Origin: Erysipelotrichaceae bacterium
GTDB taxonomy: Bacteria; Bacillota_I; Bacilli_A; Erysipelotrichales; Erysipelotrichaceae
Assembly: GCA_017441765.1 (NCBI GenBank)
Contig: JAFRVK010000044.1
Span: 1 to 64,000 of the forward strand
Length of the DNA stretch: 64,000 nt
Direction: 5' to 3'
The notes under the pieces are model-generated. The model made no database searches. It worked only from the letters and a program-made list of their open reading frames with translations, and had not been told where the DNA came from. Below, piece after piece: positions 227 through 2,146 of this stretch. Position numbers and translations under genes: made by a program. Position 1 is the stretch's first letter, and the number at the start of each line of letters is the position of its first letter.

Positions 227-535
227 TTACTTCCTTTCTTTGATTGTGATGAAATCTCCATAAGAGTATTCAATCGTTTTCAGCTGGATCAGAACCAGAT
301 CGATGTAGTTCTGAACCGTCTGATCATCGCTGAGGATCCTTATTTCGATATCATCGGGATTGTCATGCACCTCTGCATCCTTTGGCATCTCGTCCAATGC
401 ATTCATCAGTCCATAGAAGATGGAAGATACTGCTGCACAGATGAGATCCTGCCCCTCATTCGCAAATTCCGCATGACCTGTTACTTTCAGATAAGAATAT
501 TTATTCTCATCCGACTGATAACTGACTTTAATCAT
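227..535 (-). CDS. prp: Ribosomal-processing cysteine protease Prp
   Basis: Small cysteine protease (102 aa) that removes the N-terminal extension of L27 before or during ribosome assembly. The catalytic pair is visible: His in VTGHAEFA (about residue 21) and Cys in DLICAAVSS (about residue 33), with the usual glycine-rich loop between them. Length is normal for the family, formerly called YsxB. The start overlaps the stop of rplU (TAATG), so translation is probably coupled. It sits between rplU and rpmA, the standard Bacillota arrangement. Confidence 0.95.
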
Positions 536-843
536 TAAGCGATCTTTTCGACAGTCAGTTTGGTGTATGGCTGACGATGACCCTGTTTACGTCTGGTAGA
601 GCCTTTTTTCTGCTTATACTTGAAGATGATGATCTTCTTGGCTTTGTCTTGCTTATCGACTTTGCAGATGACTTTGGCGCCATCGACGTAAGGTGTACCT
701 ACAGTCAGGCCGTTGTTTTCGACTGCAACAACCTTATCGAACGTGTACTTGTCGCCTGCTTCCACATCGAGTTTTTCGACATAGATGGACTGGCCTTCTT
801 CGACTTTCAGCTGTTTGCCGCCGGTTTCAATAATCGCATACAT
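535..843 (-). CDS. rplU: 50S ribosomal protein L21
   Basis: Large-subunit ribosomal protein of 102 aa, the usual length. It begins [18 protein letters not shown] and carries the C-terminal basic motif [20 protein letters not shown] that contacts 23S rRNA. The start follows a clear AAGGAGG site. It is the first gene of the rplU-prp-rpmA operon and has a roughly 100-nt 5' leader behind a strong promoter, so expression may be controlled through that leader. Confidence 0.98.
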
Positions 844-851
844 CGTATTAA

Positions 852-946
852 CCTCCTTTTTTGTACGGACTCGCCATGAAGGTGATCATTCGATACTTAA
901 AACCTCTTCTGAGCGGTTATAACCCCCGAAAGAAGGGACTACAACA
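852..946 (-). ncRNA. Candidate L21-type leader of the rplU operon
   Basis: Between the predicted start of transcription (near 945) and the rplU ribosome site lies about 95 nt with small hairpins. One is CCC-TTCTTTC-GGGG followed by GTTATAACC, and another pairs AACC with GAGGTT. Bacillota commonly carry a conserved L21 leader here, thought to mediate feedback by L21. Position and size fit, but I could not match the consensus structure base by base, so this is an inference from location. Confidence 0.35.
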
Positions 947-980: not shown

Positions 981-1022
981 TAATAAAATATTATAAAAAG
1001 GATCTTGCGATCCTTGCATGAT

Positions 1023-1580
1023 TTATGCTCTGCCAGAGTATTTTCCATCGATCGTCGAAACGATGACATGTTCTCCCTGTTCGATAAACAATGGAACCTT
1101 GATCTGCAGTCCGGTCTCCGTGACAGCATTCTTCAATGCGGAAGTCGCGGTGTTTCCTTTGACTGCCTGTTCGCATTCCACCAGTTCCAGTTCCACCTTA
1201 TCCGGCAGGATGACTCCCAGGATCTCTCCCTCATAAAATGAGATATTCACATCCAGATTCGGGACAAGGAAACTCATTTCCCATTCGAGCCTGTCCTTTG
1301 GAATTTCCAGCTGTTCATAAGTCTCGGAATCCATAAAGACTGCCGCGTCTCCGGAATCATAGAGATACTGCATCGGACGTTTGTCGATATGCGCTTCTCC
1401 GACCTGATCGGAACCGATGAATGACAGTTCCTTGACAACGCCGGTCCGAGGCACTTTGACTTTGACCTTTACCTTCATCTTGGCCATCGCGGTCTTATTC
1501 AGCTGGATATCGATGCACTGATATAATTCGTTCTCCCAGGTAAAACAGGATCCCGGTTTGATTTCTGTACAACTCAACAT
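1023..1580 (-). CDS. efp: Elongation factor P with atypical modification loop
   Basis: EF-P (185 aa, normal length) binds between the P and E sites and rescues ribosomes stalled on polyproline. Three domains can be followed: the N-terminal KOW-like domain, the middle OB domain (MQYLYDSGDAAVFMDSETYEQ) and the C-terminal OB domain ending GKYSGRA. The loop that normally reads HVKPGKGAAFV and bears the modified lysine is instead QLNKTAMAKMKVKVKVKV, so the PGKG turn is absent. The start has an AGAGAGG site. Either a divergent EF-P subclass with another lysine at the tip or a specialised paralogue is possible. The family call is firm; the modification state is unknown. Confidence 0.92.
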   Translation of the reverse strand: MLSCTEIKPGSCFTWENELYQCIDIQLNKTAMAKMKVKVKVKVPRTGVVKELSFIGSDQVGEAHIDKRPMQYLYDSGDAAVFMDSETYEQLEIPKDRLEWEMSFLVPNLDVNISFYEGEILGVILPDKVELELVECEQAVKGNTATSALKNAVTETGLQIKVPLFIEQGEHVIVSTIDGKYSGRA

Positions 1581-1636
1581 GACTATAACCTCTCTTTACG
1601 TTTCTATTGTAATATAAGTCTTATCTTAAGGAAACA

Positions 1637-2146
1637 TCAGCCATGGGGATGATAGTTTCTGGCAATTTCGAACATCTTCAGGTCCACATGGCAATAGCCA
1701 TCCGGATTCTTGATGAGATAGTCCTGGTGGTAGTCTTCGGCTTTCGTAAATGATTCAAGCTTCAGGACTTCCGTGACGACCGGTTTATCATAATGGGAAG
1801 AGAGTTCTTCCATGGCCTCCTGAATGACTGGAAGATCCTGTTCATCGTCATAATAGATGCCGGTACGGTACTGATGCCCTATGTCATGCCCCTGCTGGTC
1901 CAGGACAGTCGGATCGATGATCCTGAAGAACATCTCCAGTATTTCCTTGAGTGCAATCACCGTTTCATCATAGACGGCTTCTACGGTCTCTGACGCGCTG
2001 GAACGGTGTGCCTTCAAGTCTTCATACGCGGGAGAAGGAATATCGCTGTTCGCATAGCCTACGGTCGTCTCCCTGATCCCTTCGATCAGTGACAGATAGT
2101 GCTCCACGCCCCAGAAGCATCCTCCTGCCAGATAAATCTTTTTCAT
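1637..2146 (-). CDS. msrA: Peptide methionine sulfoxide reductase MsrA
   Basis: Reduces the S-form of methionine sulfoxide in proteins. The chosen start gives MKKIYLAGGCFWGVEHY, with the catalytic Cys in the invariant GGCFWG motif at residue 10. A GYCHVDL segment near the C-terminus has the position of a resolving Cys. At about 169 aa this is a single-domain enzyme with no MsrB fusion. The reading frame extends upstream, but the AGGAG site sits just before the ATG at 2146, overlapping the end of the preceding gene, which suggests coupling. It is part of the oxygen-damage repair set seen elsewhere in this window. Confidence 0.95.
   Translation of the reverse strand: MKKIYLAGGCFWGVEHYLSLIEGIRETTVGYANSDIPSPAYEDLKAHRSSASETVEAVYDETVIALKEILEMFFRIIDPTVLDQQGHDIGHQYRTGIYYDDEQDLPVIQEAMEELSSHYDKPVVTEVLKLESFTKAEDYHQDYLIKNPDGYCHVDLKMFEIARNYHPHG

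Follow-up and report, generated by a model that had tools for sequence, protein, structure and literature searches.

A conserved EF-P with methionine at the loop tip in an Erysipelotrichaceae bacterium and its relatives

The EF-P locus and its surroundings

The window, by which we mean the whole 64,000-nucleotide stretch of Erysipelotrichaceae DNA that was analysed, carries an EF-P gene whose product has methionine where EF-P usually bears a modified residue (Table 1). The three Pfam EF-P domains of this protein (KOW, OB and C-terminal) pass their curated cut-offs, the TIGR00038 efp equivalog model scores 199.1 bits (cut-off 185.8), and solved EF-Ps can be aligned with the sequence over its full length. 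The structure predicted by AlphaFold2 (mean pLDDT 88.4) has the EF-P fold, and its Foldseek matches in the PDB are headed by EF-P entries. The gene is intact and purifying selection acts on its protein: five of 12 comparisons yielded a dN/dS value, ranging from 0.03 to 0.10, and three of these five have dS > 1. We hold with high confidence that the Met-tip EF-P is both intact and native, and it is likely to be functional in translation.

The nearest neighbours of the gene in the window are msrA upstream and the rplU unit downstream, with an L21 leader RNA separating the EF-P gene from rplU. Within the set of loci examined, msrA neighbours efp only in the window's species and its nearest relatives (genomes G000, G006, G017 and G010 and loci L033-L035), and two of these loci, L033 and L034, are nearly identical to that of the window (97%) and carry the label Erysipelotrichaceae. 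We rejected a functional link to msrA, such as redox control of Met32, because the adjacency is confined to this small group. A link to rplU was rejected as well, since that adjacency occurs only in the closest relatives and a terminator-like site and the L21 leader intervene; terminator-like sites in the stretch number two against a shuffle mean of 2.1, which is no excess over chance.

Table 1. Features at and around the Met-tip EF-P gene, in positions of the window.
Feature	Position	Strand	Basis or remark
Met-tip EF-P gene, 185 aa	1023-1580	-	Pfam EFP_N, EFP, Elong-fact-P_C and TIGR00038, all above cut-off
Codons for the beta3-beta4 loop, residues 29-35, KTAMAKM	1476-1496	-	sequence; limits from AlphaFold2 model
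DNA pattern match for residues 28-35	1476-1499		pattern search
Met32 codon ATG, tip residue replacing the usually modified lysine	1485-1487	-	alignment
Lys34 codon, basic residue at +2 from the tip	1479-1481	-	residue 33 Arg or 34 Lys in 84/84 Met-tip proteins
AGAGAGG, likely ribosome-binding site	1589-1595	-	read from sequence; 8 bases before the EF-P start codon
Terminator-like hairpin	998-1015	-	hairpin search; directly past the EF-P stop codon
Ribosomal protein L21 leader RNA	857-928	-	RF00559, 37.5 bits (cut-off 36); opens the next unit
rplU	535-843		Pfam match; in the unit after the L21 leader
prp	227-535		Pfam match; same unit as rplU
msrA	1637-2143	-	ends 56 bases upstream of the Met-tip efp, same strand

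A rewritten loop with methionine at the tip

In an ungapped alignment to canonical EF-Ps, the segment QHVKPGKGAAFVRxK corresponds to QLNKTAMAKMKVKVK in the window protein. KTAMAKM thereby aligns without gaps to KPGKGxA, Met32 takes the position of the lysine, and the divergence spans approximately residues 27-36. The structural model places beta3 at residues 18-28, the loop at 29-35 and beta4 at 36-42, and because the usual seven residues lie between beta3 and beta4 the loop appears rewritten rather than missing; seven residues is also the canonical EF-P loop length given in the available text of PMC11611912. The preliminary description had proposed that an HVKPGKGAAFV-type segment was replaced within an otherwise ordinary EF-P, and the ungapped alignment, with M32 where lysine is expected, upholds the first point as the Pfam domains, the TIGR00038 score and the modelled fold uphold the second. 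Its wording, an EF-P "without the PGKG loop", holds for the PGKG motif and the tip lysine, which are gone, but not for the loop itself, which is present at seven residues with a different sequence.

Compared with the canonical lysine-tip EF-P (E. coli K34, B. subtilis K32), the window protein shares the three-domain fold, the length, the seven-residue loop and the ungapped alignment, but the Met-tip form lacks Pro at -2 and Gly at -1, bears Met at the tip and has a basic residue at +1 or +2. With M32 and T30 it falls outside the lysine type as defined by a tip Lys and Pro at -2, and with M32 outside the arginine type as defined by an Arg tip. The arginine-tip EF-P that is rhamnosylated by EarP is nearer in that Pro at -2 is likewise missing in the Met-tip form and that sister proteins of the Met-tip form carry NKxxR loops, which presumably resemble the Pseudomonas EF-P loop. 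The Met tip separates the window protein from this type, and the EarP search matched 0 of 64 genomes, a weak test as no control genome matched either. A further point of comparison is EfpL (YeiP), an EF-P relative described in the available literature as working with an unmodified tip and coexisting with a lysine-tip EF-P. The window protein lies far below the cut-offs of both EfpL models (NF003392, 112.1 versus 216; TIGR02178, 104.6 versus 264.05), and its loop (residues 29-35) has seven residues and a Met tip, unlike that of EfpL, which is two residues longer and has an Arg tip according to the portion of PMC11611912 at hand.

N28, K29, T30, A31, M32 and M35 (NKTAM..M) are invariant across the 84 distinct Met-tip proteins, a set that makes up 16 clusters at 70% identity, and the Met32 codon is ATG in all 13 sequences compared. 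Locus L063, from Erysipelotrichaceae bacterium NK3D112, has the loop form NKTAMRQM; its record bears no MAG label, and the strain may be a cultured one. Since NKTAM..M is constant in all 84 proteins and across the 16 clusters, the Met tip is neither chance nor a sequencing error.

Distribution of Met, Arg and Lys tips

The family survey comprised 225 distinct EF-Ps of at least 165 aa from the fetched loci, with 84 Met, 40 Arg and 101 Lys tips; the sample is weighted to the window's relatives and leaves out shorter proteins and identical copies. Odd loops make the tip call dependent on the alignment for L256 among the 40 Arg-tip rows and for L101, L243 and L263 among the 101 Lys-tip rows. These three Lys-tip rows are Anaeroplasma-type EF-Ps with a shortened loop, HVLQNK-VAYVR, that lacks PGKG and is one residue shorter, and L256, from genome G123, has the very odd loop NVPTKRGSV-LQ and is the sole EF-P match in a genome that is 97% complete.

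A DNA pattern for NKTAMxxM matched 84 of 392 genomes sampled from the phylum, against 6 of 392 for a reversed control pattern, and part of the NKTAMxxM matches were confirmed inside EF-P genes. Two matches, in G045 and G179, were set aside as chance, as residues 33-34 would read Q-L and S-A there and the known EF-P of G045 is lysine-tip. The pattern is thereafter found in 26 of 41 genomes of the window's family (f1), 46 of 48 of f8, all 8 of f19, and one each of f29 and f30. All 14 genomes using genetic code 4 (f5 and f16) whose tip was read have an Arg-tip EF-P, and among the 392 genomes searched no f5 or f16 genome showed the NKTAMxxM pattern; in-frame TGA codons and small genome size lead us to assign these two families to the Mollicutes. 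On both grounds the idea of an NKTAMRQG loop in Mycoplasma EF-P was set aside.

Separate origins of the Met/Arg and lysine copies

In a 75-row tree, from which the loop columns were removed and five odd or long rows dropped (L101, L106, L112, L256 and L263), all Met-tip and Arg-tip proteins form one clade with 100/98 support, f5 and f16 included. The lysine copies of Erysipelotrichales form a separate clade, also with 100/98 support, beside the proteins of G109 and f12, and a 115-row tree gives the same split of Met/Arg from lysine. Forcing the Met/Arg set together with the Erysipelotrichales lysine copies was rejected by the AU test at p-AU 0.018, a value that is flattering as the groups were named after the 115-row tree had been seen. 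On this value, and because the two copies take separate places in both trees, we rejected the possibility that the canonical copy had recently been duplicated within Erysipelotrichales. Within the Met/Arg clade, the Met-tip proteins as one side of a branch received 39/78 support, and the Arg-tip proteins as a single clade were not rejected (p 0.27).

The gene neighbourhoods follow a similar division. Among loci with at least 2.9 kb of upstream sequence, 40 of 65 with a Met tip have comG-type genes upstream in the same orientation, leaving 25 without, as do 17 of 33 with an Arg tip; the corresponding numbers are 0 of 38 for Erysipelotrichales lysine-tip loci and 1 of 20 for other lysine-tip loci. 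Some places enter this count both as a named and as an unnamed locus. "ComGA" and "ComGC" here are labels for proteins with the Pfam domains T2SSE and N_methyl. Downstream, among loci with 2.9 kb on that side, Asp23, NusB or XseA genes follow at 17 of 34 loci with an Arg tip, 4 of 22 other lysine-tip loci, 1 of 55 Met-tip loci and none of the 39 Erysipelotrichales lysine-tip loci. The order comG, efp, nusB, xseA is known from B. subtilis too. Given the separate clades and the comG-type neighbours of the Met/Arg loci, the Met/Arg copy looks native and the lysine copy acquired.

A second, lysine-tip EF-P and its SDR

The window's genome (1.5 Mb, 77% complete) has one further EF-P, at C52, with HVKPGKGAAILK. 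The second efp gene for which a check had been proposed is thus present, in canonical lysine-tip form. The preliminary description had also named the pairing of a canonical second EF-P with a dead odd copy, and of this only the first half was found, the Met-tip gene showing no sign of death in its dN/dS values.

A short-chain neighbour travels with the lysine-tip gene. An SDR at least 60% identical to that of locus L001 is encoded in 31 of 64 chosen genomes, all 31 of which have an HVKPGKGAAIL lysine-tip EF-P, and no lysine-tip EF-P was found in the remaining 33, in 31 of which the tip was read (all except G075 and G125). The SDR gene begins within about 30 bases after the lysine-tip efp on the same strand in 30 of the 31 genomes, the two lying on separate contigs in G016. 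At L001:370-1683 the SDR gene follows the lysine-tip efp by nine bases, a pair conserved in many Erysipelotrichales and in G109. Across the class the SDR was found in 13 of 198 genomes; two of these, G109 and G201, belong to families other than f1 and f2 and have two EF-Ps apiece, and in G201 an ORF stands between the lysine-tip efp and the SDR gene (L345). Further lysine-tip EF-Ps of 186 aa, with no adjacent SDR, occur at L198, L199, L201 and L202, and such a protein is the third EF-P of its genome in G018 and G004.

YmfI, the EF-P 5-aminopentanone reductase, belongs to the SDR type. The efp-linked SDR matches the same SDR-type model (NF047420, 169.5 bits, E 9.6e-50) but stays under its cut-off of 238, other SDR models score higher, and its gene adjoins that of its presumed substrate. 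No protein of the 64 genomes exceeded 238 bits, and one control genome did. Other SDRs match the YmfI model better in many genomes, reaching 231 bits, among them the Met-only G215 and G175 and the Arg-only G247 and G037; L203 and the other best matches near the cut-off (at most 231 of 238 bits) are not separated from FabG-like enzymes. In B. subtilis, as stated in the available part of PMC5885033, YmfI catalyses the final step in modifying the EF-P lysine. By its association with efp, the linked SDR is likely an EF-P modification enzyme of its own kind.

The presence of two EF-Ps in the window's genome and many of its relatives lends itself to a division of labour, in which the lysine-tip copy would do the bulk of polyproline work and the Met-tip copy would serve a subset of motifs, much as E. 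coli, in the literature available, has EfpL beside EF-P as a second factor with a motif range of its own. Such a specialised paralogue gives no account of the species that have the Met-tip copy alone, and as a general explanation it is possible but doubtful to us, although it is compatible with our preferred reading, a native EF-P that works unmodified, within the window's own species.

Genomes with a single EF-P

We searched 198 genomes of the class with TIGR00038 for EF-P copy number. A single EF-P match together with the Met-tip pattern was found in 29 of them (7 f1, 18 f8 and 4 f19), at 96-100% completeness, and for 14 of the 29 the Met tip was also seen in the protein sequence itself. The bacteria of these near-complete genomes appear to live with the Met-tip EF-P alone, which suggests a way of working without tip decoration. 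The converse was also seen among 61 relatives: only a lysine-tip copy was found in G045 (100% complete) and G031 (93%), and likewise in G019 and G023, whose genomes are less complete. Loss of the Met/Arg copy is therefore possible. In G182, 48 residues of a further EF-P remain at L264, with a TAA stop in frame, and an intact Met-tip copy lies elsewhere in that genome.

That losses such as the lysine-only G045 and G031 and the stopped fragment of G182 occur in the group, and that a canonical EF-P is present in the window's genome, might speak for the Met-tip gene being a redundant copy decaying after the canonical one was gained. The low dN/dS, the loop motif held in all 84 proteins and the 29 genomes in which the Met-tip protein is the only EF-P found run against this, and we regard decay as scarcely credible.

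Valyl-tRNA synthetase is known for its PPP motif. It was recovered above cut-off in 27 of 28 genomes, and PPP was retained in all 27 (17 Met-only, 6 Arg-only and 4 with two tip types), which implies that the demand for Pro-Pro bonds persists; the Met-tip EF-P would then serve it. Alternatively, the Met-tip protein may have ceased to rescue polyproline stalls and taken another role at the ribosome, its former work passing to ABCF ATPases and YebC-type proteins. The K34M variant of E. coli EF-P shows no activity in vivo (PMC6544042, in the part available), and other bacterial polyproline factors have been reported in the literature as far as accessible, but the ValS PPP was kept in all 17 Met-only genomes checked, NKTAM..M is invariant, and in 29 near-complete genomes no EF-P besides the Met-tip protein was found. 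A lost polyproline role is in our estimate quite improbable.

Is the Met-tip copy modified?

Among known modification enzymes, EpmA was above cut-off in 0 of 64 genomes and in two control genomes; weaker matches in 56 genomes fall in ORFs of 494-685 aa, a length expected of lysyl-tRNA synthetase. Deoxyhypusine synthase was found in 0 of 40 genomes and in 7 controls. The accessible portion of PMC4014445 reports that none of the mollicutes analysed has YjeK, YjeA or YfcM homologues.

Positions 33-34 of the Met-tip proteins read AK in 48, RQ in 31, RK in 4 and RG in 1, so that residue 33 is Arg or residue 34 Lys in all 84, and none of the 40 Arg-tip and none of the 101 Lys-tip proteins has a basic residue at either position; as the Met group may go back to a single origin, these counts do not represent independent events. 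The pattern suggests, as far as sequence can tell, that a positive charge near the tip may be kept by other means. The inactivity of E. coli K34M shows that Met at the tip alone is insufficient, and that variant is without the neighbouring basic residue; it therefore fits with the neighbouring residue mattering, and it is at the same time the strongest point against a simple reading in which methionine by itself works. As described in the text available of two papers, Arg33 of EfpL is unmodified by mass spectrometry and was proposed from docking to contact the CCA end (PMC11611912), and B. subtilis EF-P without modification, K32R included, stays active for swarming (PMC5885033).

A modification at some other loop residue, by an enzyme not yet known, could act on the amine of K34 or K29 or, in the RQ forms, on the guanidine of R33. 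The basic residue at 33 or 34 in every Met-tip protein and the invariant K29 would suit it, as would the statement, in the part of PMC6544042 at hand, that more than half of bacteria encode no known EF-P modification enzyme. However, residue 34 is Lys in only 52 of the 84 (31 have Gln and one has Gly), and a single enzyme acting on a single residue would therefore misfit the family; K29 is conserved about equally in Lys-tip EF-Ps (97 of 101); and among the loci examined we noticed no gene that regularly accompanies the Met-tip gene, msrA and rplU adjoining it only in the closest relatives. We consider this unlikely.

The preliminary description had left three ways for the protein to act. Use of another lysine is weakened by the counts at residues 34 and 29. 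Working unmodified suits the data best of the three, though it is argued from the absence of known enzymes only, namely EpmA, deoxyhypusine synthase and, in the search without a positive control, EarP (0/64), and we put its chance only a little above even. A specialised role could apply only in genomes that have both copies, the Met-tip EF-P being the sole one found in the 29 near-complete genomes.

Discussion

The Met-tip protein belongs to a Met/Arg-tip clade apart from the lysine-tip copy, and it is the sole EF-P found in many near-complete genomes. The explanation we prefer, and think somewhat likelier to be right than wrong, is that of a native, functional EF-P that lost its modifiable lysine long ago and works unmodified, beside an acquired lysine EF-P modified with the help of an SDR. 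The lineage's native EF-P would first have lost the modifiable tip lysine, and the Met-tip protein would work unmodified with the positive charge shifted to residue 33 or 34. The window's species would have acquired the lysine-tip EF-P and the adjacent SDR reductase together, the SDR may take part in modifying the lysine-tip EF-P as YmfI does in Bacillus subtilis, and the cell would run an unmodified and a modified EF-P side by side.

A broader proposal is that Met-tip EF-Ps form a third working class, in which modification is dispensed with and the tip charge has moved to Lys34 or Arg33, some lineages having then taken in a lysine EF-P and SDR cassette. We offer it tentatively, at slightly less than an even chance, and the charge shift as its working principle is a guess that we would place no higher.

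Met tips have been catalogued before. In the available text of PMC6544042 (2019), Met makes up 0.77% of 1166 EF-P tips, never with Pro at -2; the Met-tip EF-Ps appear there as a count together with the inactive K34M, with no family, genome context or role given in that text. Methionine is also named among EF-P tip residues in PMC11611912, and paralogous EF-Ps with an Ala or His tip are described from other bacteria in PMC2821294, both as far as their accessible text goes. In titles and the beginnings of abstracts, a search that mostly leaves subscription papers outside, we found no description of a Met-tip family or of Erysipelotrichales EF-Ps.

The efp-SDR pair is a candidate EF-P modification unit carried beside its own substrate. 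The mechanism of EF-P is usually told around a modified tip residue, and a family that has neither Lys nor Arg at the tip, and that is the only EF-P found in several groups, makes it directly testable whether EF-P needs tip chemistry or merely a charge nearby.
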